This document shows, piece after piece, positions 3,700 through 53,225 of a stretch of 64,000 bases of DNA (its first letter is position 1; each line of letters starts with the position of its first letter). Origin of the DNA: Halpernia frigidisoli (lineage in GTDB: Bacteria > Bacteroidota > Bacteroidia > Flavobacteriales > Weeksellaceae); assembly GCF_900113805.1 (NCBI RefSeq), contig NZ_FOQT01000001.1, positions 124,001 to 188,000 on the forward strand, in the 5' to 3' direction. Under the pieces are notes generated by a model. That model searched no databases. It was not told the DNA's origin and saw nothing but the letters and a program-made list of their open reading frames with translations. Made by a program: the position numbers and the translations under genes.

Positions 3700-3790
3700 A
3701 TTTTTCTTTGGCAGACATTTCCGTCTTCCGTTCCCAATCTTTTTTTCAAATGCAAAAAAAGGATTTCCACTCAAGCCGGGCTGCAACTCA
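3700..3790 (-). repeat. Intergenic repeat element between nuoH and nuoI
   Basis: Read on the minus strand the gap contains GCCCGGCTTGAGTGGAAATC followed by CTTTTTTT and then AAAAAAAGATTGGGAACGGA. A related arrangement (CCCGATTGCAATGGAAATCC, a T run, later AAAAAGATTGTAATGGAA) occurs at 50177-50275. The two share the GGAAATCCTTTTTT core and the AAAAAGATTG second half, so they look like two copies of one dispersed intergenic family. A 61-codon open frame over this area has no coding character and I do not call it a gene. Confidence 0.5.
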
Positions 3791-3849
3791 TTTTGCTTAA
3801 CCAGTTTATTTAATAGTTGAAGATTATTACAATCTTCAAAGATTAAAAG

Positions 3850-4923
3850 CTATTTCATAAAATGCTCAAAAGCCAAAATAATTCCGCCCGTTAACACCAA
3901 ATTCACCAACGCGATTGGGATCAGTTTTTTCCAACCTAAATGCATTAACTGGTCATATCTGAAACGTGGTAAAGTCCATCTCACCCACATAAATATTAAA
4001 ATACCGATAAAAGTTTTTAACAAAAATGACAGGATCGACAATATTCCTACCGTATTTTCACTCCAGTGTTCCGTCGCCCACTGAATTCCTGGAAAGTTGT
4101 AACCTCCTAAAAATAAAGTAACGATCAAAGCATTCGAAATAAACATATTTACATATTCACCGAACATATAAAGTCCCAGTTTCATGGAAGAATATTCTGT
4201 ATGATAACCGTTAATTAACTCAGATTCACATTCCGCCAAATCAAAAGGATGTCTGTTACATTCTGCTAAAGCTGCCACAAAAAATATAATAAATGCGACA
4301 GGCTGGTAAAAAATATTCCAGTTCATGCCAGAAATCCAGGGAATAACGCCCCAAAGTTTTCCTGTTGACTGACTGTCTGTTATTACTTTTAGATCTAAAC
4401 TTCCTGTCATCATAATGATCGCAATCAGAGCTAAACCCATTGCGAGTTCGTATGAAATCATTTGAGAAGAAGCACGTATTGCACCGATCAAAGAATATTT
4501 ATTATTAGAAGCCCATCCGCCTATCATAATTCCGTAAACACCGATTGAAACCATTCCAATTAAATAAAGCACGCCGACGTCAATATTGGCAACCTGTAAA
4601 GAATAGCTTTGTCCGCCAAAATTTAAAGATTTACCCCAAGGAATGACAGCTCCAGTAATCAGGGAAATAAACATTACCAAAGATGGTCCGATCACGAAGA
4701 GGAATTTTTCTGCGTTTGCCGGCGTAAAATCTTCTTTAAAGAAAAATTTACCACCATCCGCTAATGGCTGAAACAAACCAAAAGGTCCTGCGCGGCTTGG
4801 TCCCATTCTATCCTGCATTATTGCAGCTACCTTTCTTTCTGCCCAGGTAGAGTAGGCTGCAACGGTTAGTGCCAATAAGAAAAGGCCAAAAACCAGTATT
4901 AATTTAAAAGTTAAAACTCCCAT
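3850..4923 (-). CDS. nuoH: NADH-quinone oxidoreductase subunit H
   Basis: Polytopic protein of 357 residues, about the usual length of NuoH/ND1, which forms the quinone-access chamber at the junction of the two arms. The family signatures are present: AERKVAAIMQDRMGPSRAGP (residues 28-47) and the acidic loop ALAECNRHPFDLAECESELI (about 218-237) that lines the quinone site. It follows nuoG after 3 bases and precedes nuoI after a long spacer. A break of this kind inside nuo operons can carry an internal promoter or an RNA processing site, but none can be shown here. Confidence 0.97.
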   Translation of the reverse strand: MGVLTFKLILVFGLFLLALTVAAYSTWAERKVAAIMQDRMGPSRAGPFGLFQPLADGGKFFFKEDFTPANAEKFLFVIGPSLVMFISLITGAVIPWGKSLNFGGQSYSLQVANIDVGVLYLIGMVSIGVYGIMIGGWASNNKYSLIGAIRASSQMISYELAMGLALIAIIMMTGSLDLKVITDSQSTGKLWGVIPWISGMNWNIFYQPVAFIIFFVAALAECNRHPFDLAECESELINGYHTEYSSMKLGLYMFGEYVNMFISNALIVTLFLGGYNFPGIQWATEHWSENTVGILSILSFLLKTFIGILIFMWVRWTLPRFRYDQLMHLGWKKLIPIALVNLVLTGGIILAFEHFMK

Positions 4924-27302: not shown

Positions 27303-30300
27303 TTAAATTTTATCGTATAACCAAACTCTCAGCAATGAAACGAGCTGGTCAATATCCACTGGTTTTGAAATATAATCTGACGCGCCTACTGCGATACATT
27401 TTTCCCTATCGCCCATCATTGCTTTTGCCGTTACTGCAAGAACAGGAAGATTTTTAAATTCCTTAATAGCGCGAATCTCGCGGATGCTTTCATAACCGTC
27501 CATCTCGGGCATCATCATATCCATAAGCACAATGTCCACATTATTTTCAGACTGCATTATCTTAAGTGCTTCTTTACCATCCAGCGCCGGAATCACTTTC
27601 ATTCCCTGTATTTCCAGGGCTTTTGTGAGTGAGAAAATATTCCTTACATCGTCATCTGCAATAAGAACTGTTTTGTTTTTCAATATATTTCTCATTTCTG
27701 AAAGATTATCAATTCCAGATCTTGTTTCTATATTTTTTTTACTTTTTTCTTCTACTAAATGAAGGAATAGTCCAGCTTCATCTAAAATTCTTTGGTACGA
27801 ATAAGCAGTTTTTACTACAATAGAATCAGCATATTTTTTGATCCGGTTTTCTTCACCCTGAGAAAGATTTTTCCCTGTGAAAACAATGATCGGCAGATTT
27901 TCAAGGCCTTTATTTTGTTTAATGGTTTCCAGTGTTTCGTAGGCATTTTTATCCGGAACTCCCATATCCAGAATGACGATATCTATTTCTCTGCTGTGTA
28001 AAGAATCTATACTTTGCTCCACGTTATCCGCAATATTTGTGCTGATATTATTGGCGCTTAGAAAGTAACTTAGCGCTTTGGCGTGTTGTTTATTTTCTTC
28101 TACAATAAGTACTTTTTTTGGAGAACGTTTTAAGGCATTCTCTATTTTATCAAAAACATCCTGCATTTGTTCTAAAGCAAAAGGTTTGTTAATGAAATCT
28201 ACCGCACCTTTTAGCAGACTTTCCTGTTTAAATTTCATGGAAGACATGATGTGAACGGGAATTGGTTTTGTCTTTGGGTCAGATTTTAAAGCTTCCATTA
28301 CCTGCCATCCGTCCATTATTGGAAGTTGAATATCAAGTAAAATAGCAAGCGGTTTAAAATTTTGAGCCAACTCAATACCGTGATCGCCGCGAACGGCGCA
28401 AATGACCTTATAATTTTTACTTCGGGAAAAATCTGCTAAAATTTTTGCAAAAGGCGTGTCGTCTTCGATGATCAGGATCACTTTATCTCCCGGAATTATA
28501 TTGTCGCGGTCGTCAGGTATTGGTTGTGGAATTTTATTAGCAATAAACCGGTCTGGCTGAGTTTCGATTTCTTCCGAAAAGTAAACCGGTTTTTTTTCTT
28601 CTTTTTCCAAAGGAATTATTACCGCGTGTTCTTTATTTACAGGTATTTCTAAAATGAACTCGCTACCTTTTCCTTCGGTGCTTGCAAGATCGATTTTCCC
28701 ACCAAGCAATCTGGCAAGTTCGCGGCTGATCGAAAGACCGAGCCCTGTTCCGCCATATTTACGTTGTGTAGATCCATCAGCCTGTTGGAATGCTTCAAAA
28801 ACGAGACGCAATTTGTCTTTTGGAATTCCTATTCCGGTATCGCTTACTTTAAAATTTATCTTTTCCTTGTTTTCATCACAGAAAACAGTCATTTTAATGA
28901 TTCCCTCGGAAGTGAATTTTATAGCATTTGAAAGAAGATTTTTTAAAATTTGCTCCAGTCTGAGTTTGTCTGTATGGATGATTTCTGCAGCTTCCGGCTC
29001 TATTTCAATGATCAGCTCCAGTTTTTTATTTTCAGCTTGTGGTTTAAAAAGCATCTGCATATCTGTGGTGACATCTTTTACCAAAACATCATCAATTAAC
29101 AGCGTCATTTTTCCGGATTCTATTTTTGAAAGATCCAGAATTTCATCAATTAAAGTAAGCAATCCCTGACCGGAACTTTGCATCACTTCGCCATATTCTT
29201 TATACTGTTCTTCCAGATCTTCACTTTCTGTCATCAGTTTTGAAAGCAGCAAAATAGAATTGAGTGGCGTTCTAAGTTCATGTGACATATTCGCCAAAAA
29301 TTCAGATTTGTACTTGGTGCTTTGTTCAAGTTCGTTGGCTTTTCTTTGAATATCAATATTACGCTCTTCAATTAAAAGATTTTTTTCTTCCAGTAAACCT
29401 GTTCTTTCCTCCAGCTCCTGATTACTTTCCAGCAATTCTTCCTGCTGTACTCTAAGTTCTTCTTCTGAAGCTAAAAGTTTTTGTCCTTGTGCTTCAAGTT
29501 CGGAATTTATATTTTCAAGCTCCGAATGTTGTGCCTGAAGTTCTTCAGATTGCGCCTGTGTTTCTTCTAAAAGTTCCTGCATTTTTAGACGGCTTTGTGC
29601 GGAATAATAGGCAAGACCAATATTGCCTGCTACCGCACTTAAAAATTCTTTTTGCAGTGAGGTAAAATTAACGGTAGAACCCAATTCTATTACGCCCAGG
29701 GGAATATTATATCTAGATATAGGAAATGCAATAATGTTGATGGGCTTCGTATTTCCTGTTGAATAACTGATGGTATAACTTTCCTCTGAAATATGATCAA
29801 CAACAATTTCTTGATTGGTGCGAAAAGCTTCACCCGCGATTCCTTCACCAATTTTAAGTCTTTTTTTAATTCCACTTTCGTCTAAAGCATAGCTTCCCGC
29901 TAAATGAAGATGTGTGTCTTCTTTCAAAATGAAAAGTGTTGCAAGCTGACTTTTGGTATGAAATGCGAGGGTTTTAAGAATAACAGCTGATAGAGCATCT
30001 ATATTTTTATCACCCACCATGAGATCATTTAATTCTGAAAGAGAGGTGCTTAGCCATTTTTTATCCGCCAAAGAACTAAATGAAGTCTGCAGCGATTCTG
30101 CCATATTGTGAAGCGCTTCCGCAGCATTTCCTAAATTATTTTTTATATTTTTATCTAAGATAATATTATAATCACCACTTGAGATCTGCGAGGCAACTTT
30201 TTCAATTGCTGCAAGCCGCTCTCCGGTTTCGTGGTTTTTCTCTTCCAGTTCGCTGGTCAATTTATTTTTTTCATTGAAATCCTGAGCAACTTTCTGGAAA

Positions 30301-45240: not shown

Positions 45241-46158
45241 TTATTGCAAAACTTTTATGTTTTTTTCTTTAATAAAATTTAGCGTCGTTTTCCACCAATT
45301 CTCTTTTTGAGCTTCCGCAAAAGTTAAAATAGTTCCATTTTCGTCTTTGTTAGAGATCCAAATAATGACACCATCATAGCCCATTTTATATAATTCGTTT
45401 AATTCAAAATTCCAATACTTCGCTGGTAAAAATTGGGCGGTTTTTGCGACTTGCGGTTCTATGTAAGCATACACAGGAATTTTTTGATTTAGCCTGCGAC
45501 ACTCGTTAATATTGGCTTGTGCAAAAGATTTCCAGTTTGCGGAATCAACAATATTATTTCTTGTGTAAAGACTTGCCGCAAAAAATTGAATATCCTTTAT
45601 TATTGATTTTAATTTATCATTTACACTTTGCCATTTTTTATATTTTTCACCAGTGTTAATATTGCTCCATTCATATTTTGTCTGGGGAAAAGTGGCATAA
45701 AAGCCCAAAGGTGCAGTTGGATTTATACTTTTATAAGTTGAGATAACTCGTTTAAAATTTTGAACAGAATTAGATATATCAGCGGGATTAAAATTCCAGG
45801 ATTCAACATCAAGAACTACAGGTGTTTTTGGATTTGAGTTTAGATCATTTTTTGCAATTGTCTTTAAATTTACAAAATCTATAATTTTATTATCAACATT
45901 GCCATTGCCTTTTGAATTTGGATCATTAGGAAGAGGATTTAAAAACGTTGTGGGAGGATGCAAAATACTTGGACTTATTCCAAATTCTTCGAGATCTTTA
46001 GGCGTGTTATTATACCTTATTTGACTAAAAATTTTAAATGAGTGTGAAACAGAACCACTTAATTCTTGTGAAGATAACCTATTTGTAGAACCTTCAAAAG
46101 CAATCATCGTTAAACTTACAAGCAAGAAACAAACTTTTGATTTCATAGATTTTGACAT
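45241..46158 (-). CDS. Secreted TIM-barrel-like protein resembling hyaluronidase-fold (GH56) glycosidases
   Basis: A 305-residue protein with a signal sequence (about 5-28). PVVLDVESWNFN (Asp117, Glu119) gives the D-x-E pair found after a beta-strand in GH56 hyaluronidases; LGFYATFPQT and PVYAYIEPQV look like barrel strands; GYDGVIIWISNKDENG near 260 resembles the GxVIWGSSSD end of GH56. The overall identity seems low, so this is fold-level inference and other GH families with a DxE pair are possible. It ends 1 base from the convergent LysR gene. Confidence 0.6.
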   Translation of the reverse strand: MSKSMKSKVCFLLVSLTMIAFEGSTNRLSSQELSGSVSHSFKIFSQIRYNNTPKDLEEFGISPSILHPPTTFLNPLPNDPNSKGNGNVDNKIIDFVNLKTIAKNDLNSNPKTPVVLDVESWNFNPADISNSVQNFKRVISTYKSINPTAPLGFYATFPQTKYEWSNINTGEKYKKWQSVNDKLKSIIKDIQFFAASLYTRNNIVDSANWKSFAQANINECRRLNQKIPVYAYIEPQVAKTAQFLPAKYWNFELNELYKMGYDGVIIWISNKDENGTILTFAEAQKENWWKTTLNFIKEKNIKVLQ

Positions 46159-46316
46159 TTGATAGATTTAAATATTTATTTTTAAAGTGTAAAGTTATAA
46201 TAAAGTTGAAGTGGTGGAGATTAAGATTTGCTTAAATTTTTAGCATTGTCAGATTATAATTTAAATAAAAATCTACAATTATTAACCATGAATAATTTAT
46301 TCACAAAAACTGTGGT

Positions 46317-46324
46317 TATCTTTG
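46317..46324 (+). promoter_or_regulatory. Candidate -7 box (DEAD-box helicase)
   Basis: TATCTTTG, a TANNTTTG match, 14 bases before the ATG of the helicase gene; no TTTG at the -33 spacing. Confidence 0.4.
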
Positions 46325-46337
46325 TAAAAAAATTACA

Positions 46338-47636
46338 ATGCCCCGACTAATATCCGATTTAGGAATTATTAAAAAACTTCATAACGCCTTAAAAGATTTA
46401 GAAATTACTGTTGCAACGGAAATTCAGGAAGAAGTAATTCCGATAATTTTGAATCAAAAAGAAGATTTAGTTGCGCTAGCAAAAACAGGAACGGGAAAAA
46501 CCGCCGCTTTCGGATTGCCACTTTTGCAATTGGTTGACGTTGAAAATACAAATGTTCAAACTTTAATTTTATCACCTACAAGAGAATTAAGCCAACAGAT
46601 TTTTAATAATCTTAAGGGTTTTTCAAAATATACTCCAGAAATTTCAATTGTTTTGTTAACAGGAGGAAATACGGTGAAATCACAAGTTGAAGAATTAAAA
46701 TCTGGCGCACAAATAATTGTCGCTACGCCAGGACGATTTTTAGATTTATTAGAAAAAAATACGTTCGACATTAAATCTTTAAAAAACTTGGTTTTAGATG
46801 AAGCAGATGAAATGTTTCAGGCTTTAAAGGAAGACATTATGCCGATCTTAAAAGCTTTACCTAAAACACGGAATACTTATTTATTCAGCGCAACAATGCC
46901 TGGCGAGCTGAAGGATGTCGTGCATAATTTTATTTCAAAAAGCGCAGTTTCCATTAATTCTGACATGGAAATTATTGGAAATGAAAGTATTGACCATCAA
47001 TATATTGTTGTTGATCCAATAGAAAAACTGGATGTACTTTTGCATTTTTTAAACTCACAGGAAGGTGGAAGTGGGATTATTTTTTGCAAAACCAAAGCGG
47101 CAGTTAATAAATTAGCGAAAAATCTTGCCATCCGAAAAATTTCTTCGGGTGCTTTACACGGTAGTTTAACACAGGGAATTCGGGATCGGATAATGGATCA
47201 GTTTCGTGAAGGATATATTGATATATTGGTTGCGACAGATCTCGTTGCCAGAGGAATTGATGTAAAAGAATTAGCCTATGTTGTCAATTACCATTTACCA
47301 GATACGACCGAAGCCTACGTTCATAGAAGTGGAAGAACGGGTCGTGCAGGAGCAAAGGGACTTTCAATGACGATCATTCAAGAGGAAGAAGTTTCTGAGA
47401 TTGCTGATTTTGAAAAAGAACTGGGTATTCATTTTAAGCCGGTAAAAAAAGCTGACGCAGAATCTATCGAATGGAATAATACTTTAGTCTGGGCAAAAAA
47501 AGTCTTTAAAACCAAGCCAAACCGCGAAATTCCAGATGAGGTGAGACATCAGATAAAAACTGTTTTTCACCATTTGACGAAAGAGGAGTTGGTGGATAAA
47601 GTACTTGCCAATTATTTAGCAGAGAAAAGTAAGTAA
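46338..47636 (+). CDS. DEAD-box ATP-dependent RNA helicase
   Basis: 432 residues with both RecA domains. Q motif IQEEVIPIIL, motif I AKTGTGKTAAFG, Ia PTRELSQQ, II LDEADEMF, III FSATMP, then IIFCKTKAAVNKL, LVATDLVARGIDV and VI HRSGRTGRAG. The C-terminal extension is short (about 40 residues), so it lacks the RNA-binding domain of CsdA/DbpA. The likely task is RNA unwinding in ribosome biogenesis or mRNA turnover. Confidence 0.95.
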   Translation: MPRLISDLGIIKKLHNALKDLEITVATEIQEEVIPIILNQKEDLVALAKTGTGKTAAFGLPLLQLVDVENTNVQTLILSPTRELSQQIFNNLKGFSKYTPEISIVLLTGGNTVKSQVEELKSGAQIIVATPGRFLDLLEKNTFDIKSLKNLVLDEADEMFQALKEDIMPILKALPKTRNTYLFSATMPGELKDVVHNFISKSAVSINSDMEIIGNESIDHQYIVVDPIEKLDVLLHFLNSQEGGSGIIFCKTKAAVNKLAKNLAIRKISSGALHGSLTQGIRDRIMDQFREGYIDILVATDLVARGIDVKELAYVVNYHLPDTTEAYVHRSGRTGRAGAKGLSMTIIQEEEVSEIADFEKELGIHFKPVKKADAESIEWNNTLVWAKKVFKTKPNREIPDEVRHQIKTVFHHLTKEELVDKVLANYLAEKSK

Positions 47637-47739
47637 TTTTCTAAAAATTAATGGTCACAGAGTATAAATCCGCAACGTCTGAATTTTTATTCCGTGATTT
47701 TTTTTGTTAAAATTAATTTTAAATATAACTCGTGAAGGA

Positions 47740-47832
47740 TTACAAATCATCAAAATCGCCATCTGTCCAAAGATTTCCTTTGGAATACGTTCTGGCTTGT
47801 CCGCTAATTATGACCCGGTTTTCTTTATTGGT
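47740..47832 (-). pseudogene. Severed C-terminal tail of the phzF-like gene
   Basis: After the TGA that ends the 47833 ORF the same frame continues for 30 codons, TNKENRVIISGQARTYSKGN and LWTDGDFDDL, to TAA. ENRVIISGQARTYSKG matches the final beta-strand of PhzF proteins (consensus-like DRVxISGxAVTYxxG). So the stop is inside the gene, not at its end. Confidence 0.75.
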
Positions 47833-48546
47833 TCAATTTAATTTCCCAACACGTTCTGAAATTTGCATTGCCGTCAATTGATTTTTATTCAAACGTTTTG
47901 CCCAAAATGGAATTAATGAACAATGCGCCGAACCCGTCACTGGATCTTCTAAAATAGAGGCTTGCGGCGTAAAAAAGCGGGAAACAAAATCGCAGTTCTC
48001 GCCTTTTGCGGTCACAATTACGCCGCCTGTTTCGAGGTTTATTTCGTCAAAAAATTGGCGGTTGATGGATATGTTTTTAATATCCTCTTCTGAATCATAG
48101 ACTAAAACATAATCCCGTGATTTTAAAACTTCTTTTGGTTGGATGTTTAAAGACTTTGAGAAGTTTTCAAGTAAAGTGCTTTCAAGTGGCATTCTTGACG
48201 GGAAGTCTAAAAAATAGAAATCGTCTTCTACATGAACGGTCAAATCGCCACTTAAAGTTTCAAAGATTATTTTATTGCTTTTGTAATTTAGGATTGTTTT
48301 TAAACAATGCGCCGTTGCAAGAGTTGCGTGACCGCACAAATCCATTTCAATTTCGGGCGTGAACCAGCGCAAATGTATTTTTTCTCCTTTATCTACAAAA
48401 AAAGCCGTTTCAGCCACCGCATTTTCTTTTGTAATTTTTAGAAGAATATCGTCTGGTAACCATTTTTCTAAAGGCACCACACAAGCCGGATTTCCACCAA
48501 AAATTTTATCTGTAAAAGCATCAATTTGATAGAGTTCGAGTTTCAT
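47833..48546 (-). CDS. PhzF family isomerase-like protein, cut short by an in-frame TGA
   Basis: 237 residues of the PhzF/YddE diaminopimelate-epimerase fold. The active-site start YQIDAFTDKIFGGNPACVV, AETAFFV with Glu46, RWFTPEIEMDLCGHATLATAH and LEDPVTGSAHCSL are intact. The ORF stops at SERVGKLN with TGA at 47833-47835, where family members usually have a Cys (GELxC) and go on for about 25 residues; the missing tail is still present in frame (47740-47832). The protein would lack its last strand. Either a pseudogene in an early state or a sequence error. Substrate unknown. Confidence 0.88.
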   Translation of the reverse strand: MKLELYQIDAFTDKIFGGNPACVVPLEKWLPDDILLKITKENAVAETAFFVDKGEKIHLRWFTPEIEMDLCGHATLATAHCLKTILNYKSNKIIFETLSGDLTVHVEDDFYFLDFPSRMPLESTLLENFSKSLNIQPKEVLKSRDYVLVYDSEEDIKNISINRQFFDEINLETGGVIVTAKGENCDFVSRFFTPQASILEDPVTGSAHCSLIPFWAKRLNKNQLTAMQISERVGKLN

Positions 48547-48642
48547 GGTTGTTCGTTTTCTAGTTAAAAAAAAGATTTTAAAATAGTTTTGGTCATGGAT
48601 TACAATTCCGCAAATTTGGGAACCATTTTTTCTGCAGAAATA

Positions 48643-49050
48643 TTATTTATTTTTAATTTTCACCAAAATATTTGATGGGAATTCTTTGGATGCGTCAATA
48701 GGGTCTGCTTTTAATCGCTCATCATTCATAAAACTTAGTAATTAGAATTTTTTATCCTTTACAATAAGTTTAACTAAACCTTGATTTTGTAGTTTATCTT
48801 TTTTGAACATTTCTATCCAAACAAAATATTCTGGAAATGAATCTTTTTTCTCTATTGCATTTTTATCTAATAATTCCCATTTTAAATCATATTTTTTTCC
48901 ATGTTATTCTAAATAATGTTTATTTAATTCAATATTTAGTTCTTTATTAAAATCAGTTTTATCAGGAATGTTTTTATCAATTCCAAATTTGTTTTCTGTA
49001 CAAGACAAGAAAAAATAAAAGCACAAGATCAAGTAAATTTTAACTTTCAT
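48643..49050 (-). pseudogene. Decayed lipoprotein gene with two in-frame stops
   Basis: From ATG (49048-49050) the frame reads a lipoprotein signal (MKVKIYLILCFYFFLSC, lipobox LSC at residue 17) to residue 48, then TAA (48904-48906), continues HGKKYDLKWELLDKNAIEKK and further to KKF, TAA (48742-48744), then MNDERLKADPIDASKEFPSN to a last TAA at 48643. The whole 136-codon frame is one phase with coding-like sequence. Two stops make it a probable pseudogene. The third part could also be the remnant of a different gene, but the same phase argues against that. Confidence 0.7.
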
Positions 49051-49088
49051 GTAAGTAACTTATTTATGAACAAAATTTGTAAGTTGTT

Positions 49089-49223
49089 GCAGATAACGGT
49101 TGGGTATTTCTGTTGGCGGGGACTTTTTATAACAAGTCTTTGTAAATATAACAAATTGTACAATTAGCGAAAATATTGATGATATAAACTTCCGCCCCGC
49201 TAATAGAAATACCGTGTTAGCAG
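49089..49223. repeat. Large imperfect inverted repeat (foldback) between two lipoprotein genes
   Basis: Left arm GGTATTTCTGTTGGCGGGG at 49103-49121 pairs with right arm CCCCGCTAATAGAAATACC at 49195-49213 (19 bases, two mismatches); outer parts GATAAC / GTTAGC extend it. The loop between is about 73 bases and AT-rich. It resembles an attC-like or MITE-like element, but the canonical integron cores RYYYAAC and GTTRRRY are not both present at the ends. See the findings. Confidence 0.6.
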
Positions 49224-49967
49224 AAGTTATTATTCAACATCTATAAAAACACCTTTCAATTTTTCGATGTTCATAATTTTGATTTTTTTTGTAGGAATCA
49301 AATGCAAATCCAAAACCTTAATTTCAGGTAAATTTTCTGTTATTGTTCCATCTGAATTTCGATACTTAAAATCCATTGATTTTGAAATACGTTCAATAAT
49401 AATTTCCTTTAATCCATTTGTACTATTAATAATTTCAATATTTCCAAGGTCAAAACAATTGTCTTTTAGCGGTTCTCCCATAATACTTTTGATATTTTCA
49501 AAGCACAATTGTTTTTTGGTAATTTTAAAATTATCGAAACTGTATTTTTTTATTCCGCTCGAATTTATTGAACCATAAGTATATATTTTTAAAGTCAAAT
49601 CTTTGAATTTTTCGTACGAAATTTTTCCGGTTGTGTCTCTAGGCTGATTTAGAGAACTGTCAAATCTATTTATTGAAAGTGTATCATTTTCCCAAAATTT
49701 AATATTACCCTCTATTTTATAATTATTATTTTCTGAAAAACTTTCTCCTTTTTCCCTTATAAAAGTTCCGCAAATATCACCACTAAATGCAAATGTGCCA
49801 TTTCGACAATATTTGAATATGTCAAATTTCTCATTCGGCGAAATTTGTTTTTTGAATAGATAATATTCGTTCTCCTTTTTAATTTCTGAAAGCGGTTTTT
49901 CTTTGCATCCGATTATAATTAAGGCGAAGAATACAAACGTACTAATTTTCATATAATTTCTGCTAAC
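49216..49967. repeat. Inverted repeats flanking the 49230 gene
   Basis: GTTAGCAGAAGTTAT at 49216-49230 and ATAATTTCTGCTAAC at 49953-49967 are inverted copies (15 bases, one mismatch) at the two ends of the lipoprotein gene, the right one 1 base before the ATG-containing region and the left one running into the stop codon. The gene is therefore bracketed like a mobile cassette. Confidence 0.6.
49230..49952 (-). CDS. Lipoprotein of unknown function
   Basis: 240 residues. Starting at ATG 49952 it has a lipoprotein signal MKISTFVFFALIIIGC (lipobox IIGC, Cys16); an upstream TTG would add 7 residues and I reject it. The mature part is beta-rich with DISNSGIKKYSFDN-like alternating segments, including GTFAFSGDICGTF and EIIIERISKSMDF, and cysteines at CGTF, LCFE and DNCFD that could pair. 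No family recognised. It is flanked by 15-base inverted repeats and lies in the most disturbed part of the window. Confidence 0.75.
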   Translation of the reverse strand: MKISTFVFFALIIIGCKEKPLSEIKKENEYYLFKKQISPNEKFDIFKYCRNGTFAFSGDICGTFIREKGESFSENNNYKIEGNIKFWENDTLSINRFDSSLNQPRDTTGKISYEKFKDLTLKIYTYGSINSSGIKKYSFDNFKITKKQLCFENIKSIMGEPLKDNCFDLGNIEIINSTNGLKEIIIERISKSMDFKYRNSDGTITENLPEIKVLDLHLIPTKKIKIMNIEKLKGVFIDVE

Positions 49968-50160
49968 TATCAAATATACGCAACTTTTCTAAAAGTAAAA
50001 ATTTGTAATTGCGAGTAAATGTAGCGCTAATGTAGTATTATGTTTATAAATATACAGAATACGAAAGATTAATTAGTAAGTATACGCAAGTTAAATAATA
50101 CAAAAAACGCAGTCCTTTTTTTCTTTAATATTCATAATTTACTTCCAGTGAAACAAAAAA
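49968..50160. other. Gene-free AT-rich stretch
   Basis: AT-rich sequence with two ATACGCAA motifs (near 49976 and 50082). I see no coding frame, no RNA gene and no convincing promoter. It separates the bracketed lipoprotein gene from the next repeat element. Confidence 0.45.
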
Positions 50161-50283
50161 ATACCCGTATTTTTAGCCCCGATTGCAATGGAAATCCTTT
50201 TTTGTTATTGCGATTGCGATCATTTTCAACGGATTGCTTCGTTCCTCGCAATGACGAAAAAGATTGTAATGGAAAGCGGGTAC
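50161..50283 (+). repeat. Dispersed intergenic repeat element
   Basis: Bounded by TACCCG (50162-50167) and CGGGTA (50277-50282). It contains CCCGATTGCAATGGAAATCC with a T run, then CGGATTGCTTCGTTCCTCGC followed by AATGACG, then AAAAAGATTGTAATGGAAAG. The second part is a well-known kind of element in many bacteria, reading TCATTGCGAGGAACGAAGCA on the other strand; the first and last parts match the repeat at 3700-3790. So one element seems nested in another. A 63-codon open frame over it is not credible. Confidence 0.6.
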
Positions 50284-50323
50284 AATATTGAAAAAAAGCA
50301 AAACCGTGTTGCTCCTAAATAGT

Positions 50324-51607
50324 TTACTGGCCAATTTTAAAACGTTCGAAAGTGGCTTTTTCAAGCATTTCTCTGTCGTCTGGATGGGAAATTTCTATGA
50401 GTGCTTTTGCGCGCTGAAGCAGGTTTTTGCCGTAAAGATTGGCGACACCAAACTCCGTGACCACCCAATGAATATGGCCGCGTGTGGTAACAACGCCGGC
50501 GCCGGGTTTTAAGAAAGGGACAATTCTGGGAACGCCTTTTTTGGTGCGGGAAGAAATGGCGATGATTGGTTTTCCACCTTCGCTGAGTGCCGCGCCACGC
50601 ATAAAATCCATTTGTCCGCCAATGCCGGAAAATTGGTAAGTGCCGATGGAATCTGCGCAAACCTGCCCCGTTAAATCTATTTCTATGGCAGAATTAATAG
50701 CGACCATTTTCTTATTTTTCATAATATTAATGGGGTAATTGACGTGTTCTACATCCATAAATTCAAAGGAAGGATTGTCATTGATATAATCGTATAATTT
50801 TTTGGTGCCGAACGCAAAACTTGTGATGGTTCGGTTAAGATGCGTGCCTTTAAATTTATTGTTGATGATGTCTTTTGCGACCAAATCTACAATTCCATCG
50901 CTTATCATTTCGGTGTGAACGCCCAAATCTTTGTGGTTGTGAAGGCAACTTAAAACGGCATCCGGAATAGTGCCGATTCCCATTTGCAGAGTGCTTTTGT
51001 CGTCAATTAATTCTGCGATATTTTTGCCGATAATCATTTCGGTTTCGGTTACTTTTGCGCCATAATTTACTGTCAAAAGTTCTTCTTCATGCCAAACCAT
51101 TTTGTGGATTCGGGAAACATGGATCATTCCTTCGCCGTGCGTTCTGGGCATTTTTGGATTGACCTGAGCTATAATTAATTTTGCATTGTCAATAGCACTT
51201 CTGGCGACATCTACGGAAGTTCCGAGTGTGCAATAACCGTGAATGTCTGGCGTAGAAACGGTAATCATCGCGACATCTAAGGCGAGAATTCCGGATCTAA
51301 ATAAAGTGGGAATTTCACTCAAAAAAACGGGAACGAAATCGCCACGCTCAGAATTTACAGCATCGCGAACGGGCGTAGAAACGAAAAGTGAATTGATGAA
51401 AAATGAATCTTTGTACTGTGGTTTCGCCACTTCTACATTGCCTTGTTGAGTGATAGAAACAATTTCGACATTTTTTAATCGATAAGATTGTCTTGCCAAT
51501 TCGTCAATTAGAAAATTCGGTGTGCAAGCGCTGCCATGAGAGAAAATTCTGTCGCCACTTTTTATTACTGAAATAGCTTCTTCGGCACTTACGTAAATTT
51601 GCATCAT
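50324..51607 (-). CDS. Acetyl-CoA hydrolase / 4-hydroxybutyrate CoA-transferase family protein
   Basis: 427 residues of the Ach1/Cat1 family of CoA-transferases. IFSHGSACTPNFLIDELARQ near the start is the CoA-binding loop, LQMGIGTIPDAVLSCL with the following HTEMISDGIVDLVAKD contains the catalytic Glu region, and FSGIGGQMDFMRGAALSEGGKPIIA near 330 is a family mark. It moves CoA between acetate and another acyl group, or hydrolyses acyl-CoA. No neighbour fixes the substrate. Confidence 0.9.
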   Translation of the reverse strand: MMQIYVSAEEAISVIKSGDRIFSHGSACTPNFLIDELARQSYRLKNVEIVSITQQGNVEVAKPQYKDSFFINSLFVSTPVRDAVNSERGDFVPVFLSEIPTLFRSGILALDVAMITVSTPDIHGYCTLGTSVDVARSAIDNAKLIIAQVNPKMPRTHGEGMIHVSRIHKMVWHEEELLTVNYGAKVTETEMIIGKNIAELIDDKSTLQMGIGTIPDAVLSCLHNHKDLGVHTEMISDGIVDLVAKDIINNKFKGTHLNRTITSFAFGTKKLYDYINDNPSFEFMDVEHVNYPINIMKNKKMVAINSAIEIDLTGQVCADSIGTYQFSGIGGQMDFMRGAALSEGGKPIIAISSRTKKGVPRIVPFLKPGAGVVTTRGHIHWVVTEFGVANLYGKNLLQRAKALIEISHPDDREMLEKATFERFKIGQ

Positions 51608-51711
51608 TTAATATTTTATTTAAAAGTAAATGTACTAATTATAAAAAATCAATGAAAATTTTAATTTGTGATTTTAGTCAATCTGTTTAATGAAATTGAG
51701 AGTAAAATTTA
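51608..51711. other. Upstream region of the 50324 gene
   Basis: About 100 bases of AT-rich DNA between the CoA-transferase start and the inverted-repeat element; no clear TANNTTTG box, nothing else seen. Confidence 0.35.
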
Positions 51712-51973: not shown

Positions 51974-53161
51974 TTATTCCATTAATCTATCTTTAATATC
52001 GTTTTCAGGAATGTCGAGCCACGAAATTTTATAAGTCGGATCTTCCACTTTCATCGCTTCTTCTGTTATTTGAAATGGTCTGAACGGATCGACCATTACA
52101 GCATATTCTTCAGTAAATTTTTTGCCGATACTTCGTTCCATTGCGCCGGGATGAGGACCGTGAACAATTCCGCCGGGATGCAAAGTGAAATCCATTAAAT
52201 CTATGTGATTTCGGCTCATAAAATCGCCTTCCGTGTAAAATAAAACCTCGTCAGAATCAATGTTTGAGTGGTTATAAGGCGCAGGAATTGATTGTGGATG
52301 ATAATCGTACATTCTCGCGACAAAAGAGCAAACTACAAAATTGTGTGCTTCAAAAGTCTGATGAACCGGCGGTGGTTGGTGAATTCTGCCAGTTATTGGT
52401 TCGAAATTTTTGATGTTAAATTTATAAGGATAAAAATAACCATCCCAACCAACGACGTCAAAAGGATGTGTTGCGTAAATGAAATCCGTGATCTGATTTT
52501 CCTTCTTTACTTTAATTAAAAAATCACCTTTTTCATTTGTTGGTTTTTGCAAAGTCGGAACTTCAATGTCTCTTTCACAAAATGGCGAATGTTCTAAATG
52601 TTGACCGAATTCATTTCTATAGCGTTTTGGTGAAGATATTGGCGAATGACTTTCAAGAAAAAATAAAACGTTTTCTTTAGTGTCAAACTTTATTTTATAA
52701 ATCGTACCGCGCGGAATAATTAAATAATCGCCTTTAGAAAAACTTAAATCGCCAACAAAGGTTTTTAAAATTCCAGTTCCGTCATGGATGAAAAGTAATT
52801 CATCACATTCTGCGTTTTTGTAGAAATAATCCGTAGAATTTTGTGGTTTTGCCAAACCCATTTTTACGTCATTATTTACCAAAAGCACTTTTCGACTTTC
52901 AAGAAAATCTGCTTCTGGTGAAACATTCATTCCTTTAAACATTCTTGGCGTCACATTTTTAGCAACCGCTATTTTTGGAGAAACGTCTTTTGGTTCGCCG
53001 ATTGATTTTATTTGCGTCGGTCTTTGTAAATGGTAAAGTAGGGAAGAAATACCGTGAAATCCTTCCGTCCCGAAAAGTTGTTCATAGTAAAAATCGCCTT
53101 CTTCGGATTTAAAAATAGTATGTCTTTTTGGTGGAATTTTTCCTTCCTGAACGTAACGCAT
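51974..53161 (-). CDS. hmgA: Homogentisate 1,2-dioxygenase
   Basis: Iron-dependent ring-cleaving enzyme (395 residues) converting homogentisate to maleylacetoacetate in tyrosine breakdown. GTEGFHGISSLLYH near 31, VVGWDGYFYPYKFNIKNFEP, DYHPQSIPAPYNHSNIDSDEVLFYTEGDFMSR and FTLHPGGIVHGPHPGAMERS give the cupin core and iron ligands. The end of the protein is intact. Other tyrosine-degradation genes are not in the window. The gene is downstream of the PorV-like gene after 64 bases. Confidence 0.93.
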   Translation of the reverse strand: MRYVQEGKIPPKRHTIFKSEEGDFYYEQLFGTEGFHGISSLLYHLQRPTQIKSIGEPKDVSPKIAVAKNVTPRMFKGMNVSPEADFLESRKVLLVNNDVKMGLAKPQNSTDYFYKNAECDELLFIHDGTGILKTFVGDLSFSKGDYLIIPRGTIYKIKFDTKENVLFFLESHSPISSPKRYRNEFGQHLEHSPFCERDIEVPTLQKPTNEKGDFLIKVKKENQITDFIYATHPFDVVGWDGYFYPYKFNIKNFEPITGRIHQPPPVHQTFEAHNFVVCSFVARMYDYHPQSIPAPYNHSNIDSDEVLFYTEGDFMSRNHIDLMDFTLHPGGIVHGPHPGAMERSIGKKFTEEYAVMVDPFRPFQITEEAMKVEDPTYKISWLDIPENDIKDRLME

Positions 53162-53225
53162 GATTGCAGATTTATATTTACGTAAAGTTAGGTAAAAAAA
53201 AGAAAATCATTAAATTAAGATATTC

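Follow-up and report, generated by a model that had tools for sequence, protein, structure and literature searches.

The window analysed here, a 64,000-nucleotide stretch of the Halpernia frigidisoli genome, carries on its minus strand a phzF-like gene whose reading frame is interrupted by a TGA (Table 1). The first-pass annotation had reported this in-frame TGA at the same place, now confirmed as codon 238, and had put it 31 codons before the natural end of the gene, a count that holds if the terminator is included: the 30 sense codons that follow the TGA (239 to 268) read TNKENRVIISGQARTYSKGNLWTDGDFDDL and are closed by a TAA at 47740-47742. The part of the gene before the stop (codons 1-237) belongs to the PhzF family according to two sequence models, with 152.1 bits against Pfam PF02567 (cut-off 27) and 115.3 bits against NCBIfam TIGR00654 (cut-off 76.2), both curated cut-offs thus being exceeded, and a search of the host's own genome returned no second match to the phzF product. 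The frame also ends late, running six codons beyond the point at which 100 of 109 aligned relatives, each 262 residues long, come to their end (24 codons past the TGA). From about codon 261 on, its residues diverge from the pattern of the PhzF relatives, and the final six are GDFDDL; two of the 109 relatives are likewise longer than 262 residues (265 and 268), so that natural variation could account for the late end.

Table 1. Features of the window, copies of its dispersed repeat elsewhere in the genome, and lesions in phzF copies of other genomes of the host's family
Feature	Position	Strand	Remarks
phzF-like gene, frame spanning the TGA	47740-48546	minus	start at 48546; 267 sense codons, the TGA and the final TAA
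In-frame TGA, codon 238 of the phzF-like gene	47833-47835	minus	Cys codon in 109/109 aligned relatives
phzF tail 3' of the TGA	47743-47832	minus	remainder of strand 234-240, strands 244-249 and 251-260 (predicted)
Small lipoprotein-like frame	48643-49050	minus	in-frame TAA at 48904-48906 and 48742-48744; possible second broken gene
Dispersed repeat	49089-49234	minus	inverted arms 49103-49121 and 49195-49213; attC-like layout
ORF with no Pfam match	49230-49973	minus	3' end abuts the dispersed repeat
Flavo-1 RNA (RF01705)	50171-50287		68.5 bits, gathering score 42
Repeat copies, L134	547-691 and 3962-4110
Repeat copy, L147	8282-8411
Repeat copy, L146	13832-13927
Repeat copy, L148	3479-3573
G168 phzF	codon 107		TAG nonsense
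G210, G216 and G267 phzF			frame changes
G174 phzF			insertion of ~2.6 kb
G059 phzF			internal deletion
G007 phzF (more distant copy)			frame change and deletion

Several other features surround the gene. The small lipoprotein-like frame with two internal TAA codons may be one broken gene, to judge from the reading frame that its parts share, and a search of 394 further genomes from the order returned no relatives of it. An Rfam scan of 47500-50400 placed Flavo-1 above its gathering score and one other match below, and numerous short repeats dispersed through the host's own genome and that of a congener match the interval 49945-50340. Elsewhere in the window, the product of 45241-46158 matches the Pfam hyaluronidase family Glyco_hydro_56 with 40 bits (cut-off 23.2); such a hyaluronidase is unusual in a bacterium.

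The comparison at codon 238 rests on 109 rows that represent 102 distinct proteins. Eighty of these rows are the best 80 of 354 relatives found in a contig collection, and the other 29 are loci among the matches listed in a family search over 296 Weeksellaceae genomes, 104 of which, the host's own included, have a phzF-family match. Within this best-scoring sample, codon 238 is TGT in 75 rows, TGC in 34 and TGA in none, so that TGA occurs at this place in the present genome only, and the cysteine codon that the first-pass annotation had expected there is indeed the rule. Eight further copies lie outside the alignment; in seven of them the aligned tail contains the cysteine, while the distant G007 copy has none there. 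Because of that copy, we regard the cysteine, as far as these sequences indicate, as a trait of this clade, a statement that does not cover the PhzF family as a whole. Two of the aligned relatives, L008 and L096, are cut short at 106 residues by an early stop. They are identical in protein sequence, having been entered from two collections, and come from Chryseobacterium sp. OV279, which has an independent TAG at phzF codon 107 with the frame intact beyond it.

The origin of the gene appears to lie outside the host's family. In a tree of 108 rows, from which L008 and L096 were left out for their own early stop, the phzF-like gene falls into a five-row clade with four genes of Flavobacteriaceae (support 99/82), and the next clade, of six rows (100/93), adds Flavobacterium urocaniciphilum; neither clade holds any other Weeksellaceae row. 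L034 is no more than a candidate for the exact sister of the gene, with a support of 95/34. One other species of the host's genus was compared, and no phzF match was found in it. Of the window, only 50336-51682 and 52019-53204 align with the 19.9 kb of this congener around a shared acetyl-CoA hydrolase gene, and the phzF stretch is therefore missing there; when the whole congener genome was searched with 46100-51700, the hydrolase gene was recovered, and otherwise short matches only. The gene is thus apparently foreign, acquired from another bacterial family, and the direction that we infer for the transfer is into the host from a Flavobacterium-like donor.

Damage to phzF is not confined to this genome. 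Inspection of the copies listed as split or as having extra stops revealed broken phzF genes in at least seven other genomes of the host's family, seven being a lower bound given that only such copies were inspected. The lesions in these seven genomes are unrelated to one another (Table 1), which argues that decay of phzF is recurrent in the family. The extra stops in the G202 and G247 copies were set aside as tandem terminators behind an intact gene.

What follows the TGA is still recognisably the end of a PhzF protein, as the first-pass annotation had noted, and this is not a matter of chance. Compared with the nearest relative, L031, codons 239-260 differ in one residue, and the same residue is found in L032; codons 261-262 also differ, and were left uncounted as they adjoin position 47762, where DNA similarity to the relatives ends. 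A tail evolving neutrally along a branch with an assumed dS of 0.2 should have gathered about 10 changes; the probability of at most one is 0.0004. Measured against L031, dN/dS comes to 0.076 for the codons before the stop and to 0.105 for those beyond it, where it is based on just 7 synonymous and 4 nonsynonymous differences; no relaxation of constraint is visible before the stop. A codon-wise count along the gene's own branch, with the stop omitted, gives 2 replaced to 11 silent codons; for the three closest relatives taken together the ratio is 3 to 20, and the two do not differ (Fisher p 1.0 by codon). This count supersedes a cruder base-by-base one (p 0.45), which misscores some double changes in the leucine codons 5, 224 and 259 as replacements. 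Since the tail is still conserved and the constraint before the stop has not visibly relaxed, the stop, if genuine, would be young.

The conserved tail and the unchanged constraint are equally compatible with a recent mutation, with a base-call error and with readthrough of the stop. The main rival to a recent mutation is a base-call or assembly error, under which the true codon would be one for cysteine and the gene intact. The pattern of constraint is that of an intact gene, and the TGA is a single change away from the cysteine codons of all the aligned relatives. Against an error, one may cite the quality of the assembly (11 contigs, 99.5% complete), the genuinely broken state of phzF elsewhere in the family and the neighbouring frame with its two stops, but these points say nothing about the base itself. 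The error is the main competitor, although we consider it unlikely.

Functional readthrough, or a change in the code, supposes that a near-cognate tRNA reads UGA at some rate, so that the full-length enzyme would be made. The conservation of the tail and the low dN/dS are what one would expect in that case, and TGA is indeed a rare terminator in this organism. It ends only 1 of the 49 ORFs of at least 150 aa in the window, a count from which phzF and the ORF at 28654-29169 (a TGA-terminated frame antisense to a longer gene) were left out, and 3 of 61 ORFs of at least 200 aa in other stretches of the same genome. However, release factor 2 (RF2) is present, with 486.5 bits against a cut-off of 370, and ARAGORN read no TCA anticodon at any of the 35 matches to a general tRNA model, which come from the 150 of 286 first-look candidates that were scored. 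Thus, neither the loss of RF2 nor, among those 150 of 286 candidates, a tRNA with a UCA anticodon, the two marks of a UGA reassignment, was found. TGA is also absent from codon 238 of all 109 relatives, and a young stop accounts for the conserved tail just as well. Among the three explanations compatible with the conserved tail, readthrough is accordingly the one disfavoured by the content of the genome, and we regard it as very improbable.

The position of the stop within the protein fold bears on a further possibility, namely, that the 237-residue short form is itself functional. An AlphaFold2 model of the read-through protein, built from 20 aligned rows with a mean pLDDT of 86.1, places codon 238 inside a predicted strand (234-240), with two more predicted strands (244-249 and 251-260) beyond it. 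The closest solved structure to this predicted fold is 1s7j from Enterococcus faecalis (TM 0.89, 45% identity), which is, together with 4dun, one of the solved relatives in the PhzF family. In its model scores and its predicted read-through fold the gene resembles the family, whereas translation of the encoded product ends at residue 237, inside a late strand, and leaves the fold incomplete. In PhzF, the catalytic glutamate is E45, and H74 and D208 are described as active-site residues (PMC5524880). The counterparts of these here are presumed, from the surrounding motifs, to be E46, H73 and D201, which are invariant in the 20 aligned rows and lie intact upstream of the stop, as a working short form would need. 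Nevertheless, the lost part is predicted to supply strands to the fold (with a mean pLDDT of 78-91 across residues 231-260), and a length of 262 residues is the norm among the relatives (100 of 109). Deprived of two and a half predicted strands at its end, the short product is probably unstable or inactive, and it very likely fails to fold properly; we find it hard to credit that it works.

As for selenocysteine, the appearance of UGA where all 109 aligned relatives have cysteine is the classical Cys/Sec pattern and would be explained if UGA here encoded Sec where the family has Cys, but the genome, 99.5% complete as assembled, has no match to the SelA model, its matches to SelB and tRNA-Sec stay under their cut-offs, the RNA past the TGA folds like shuffled sequence, TGA is found in none of the 109 relatives and a 2006 survey (PMC1794560) gives the Sec-decoding trait as undetected among the Bacteroidetes that it covered, so that we assign this reading a negligible probability. 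The best SelB match reaches 190.1 bits (cut-off 242.25), and such sub-cut-off matches are presumably ordinary translation factors. All seven matches to the tRNA-Sec model are under the gathering score, and ARAGORN names them as tRNAs for Ser, Leu, Trp and Tyr. A SECIS-like structure 3' of the TGA, which the first-pass annotation had suggested looking for, did not emerge, given that the folding was of no unusual stability relative to shuffles (z of +0.59 over 63 nt and -0.96 over 93 nt). The locus therefore shares with bacterial selenoproteins that have cysteine homologues the UGA at a cysteine position, and differs from them in the absence of SelA, SelB and tRNA-Sec over the cut-offs, of a SECIS-like hairpin after the UGA and of homologues with UGA (0/109). 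Both selenocysteine and a reassignment of UGA were rejected because the genome content gives them no support. With none of SelA, SelB and tRNA-Sec above the cut-offs, RF2 present, no TCA anticodon read at the 35 tRNA matches and no unusually stable fold, UGA is most likely read as a stop in this host.

Taken as a whole, the evidence makes it highly probable that the TGA arose recently, by a nonsense mutation in a dispensable phzF gene that the host had acquired horizontally. Among the three options that the first-pass annotation had offered, this is the best supported; a sequencing error keeps a small chance, and recoding or readthrough is unsupported, none of the parts searched for having been found. 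In favour of the nonsense mutation are the uniqueness of the TGA to this genome, the foreign clade in which the gene lies, the congener with no match, the presence of RF2 and the lack of Sec components. The strands lost from the predicted fold, the broken copies in the family, the late end of the frame, the neighbouring frame with two TAA codons and the lack of any other match to the protein in the genome point in the same direction. Counted against decay are the constraint, which is not relaxed, the late end, which may be natural variation, and the neighbouring frame, which has no known relative. We propose that a PhzF-family gene would have entered the host lineage from a Flavobacterium-like donor, that a recent nonsense change at codon 238 would have inactivated it and that ribosomes would now terminate at the TGA via RF2, yielding a 237-residue protein. 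As in a pseudogene, a premature stop removes conserved sequence. Pseudogenes arising from failed horizontal transfer are described in prokaryotes (PMC522871), and the gene resembles such pseudogenes in its foreign tree position, its lack of a match in the congener and its disabling stop; it differs in that it would be very young, with no measurable relaxation of constraint. Thus, what could have been a case of recoding has the appearance of a gene in ordinary, recent decay, and nothing indicates that TGA is read as an amino acid; a Cys-to-UGA pattern alone can mislead where the Sec machinery is absent.

Of perhaps greater consequence, for what it suggests about gene exchange among Bacteroidota, is that an apparently foreign gene lies close to dispersed repeats whose ends are inverted. 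The repeat at 49089-49234 has seven further copies in the genome, with 83-95% identity, and four of these lie no more than 65 bases from the end of a contig, as though the assembly had been interrupted by an array. In the nearest relative, L031, phzF itself stands between direct repeats of 141 bp with 92% identity (2340-2479 and 3789-3929), which likewise bear inverted arms. More generally, parts of the 260 nt 3' of the gene recur at another place in the locus in 8 of 80 relatives (over 31 to 189 columns), compared with 1 of 68 control stretches. Given the dispersed repeat nearby and the direct repeats that flank the nearest relative's gene, this PhzF clade may travel among Bacteroidota as a cassette between non-canonical attC-like repeats, perhaps by means of an IntI-like tyrosine recombinase of less than classical IntI length, and the stop would be a casualty of that movement. 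We offer this tentatively and think it rather doubtful.

The likeness to integron cassettes lies in the layout of the window repeat, whereas the canonical cores and an integrase over the cut-off are missing. Canonical attC sites have a core pair, RYYYAAC and GTTRRRY, around the inverted arms. No ordered same-strand pair of this kind occurs in the window repeat, and a script search of L031-L034 found no canonical cores either, which lowers the odds of the cassette. One of the motifs GCTAAC, GCCAAC, GGTAAC or GGCAAC occurs within 60 nt after the stop in 19 of the 109 rows, a count made with no control and not used as evidence. Bacteroidota are named among the phyla with integrons in PMC8618304. 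In this genome, no integron integrase scores over the cut-off; the best candidate matches in two pieces, of 92.3 and 91.1 bits against the required 265. It is a tyrosine recombinase of 361 aa, encoded at 5037-6122 of L144 near the end of the host's contig C7, which matches both XerC-like and IntI4 structures and is a possible partner of the dispersed repeats. Several ORFs lie between the two repeat copies on L134.
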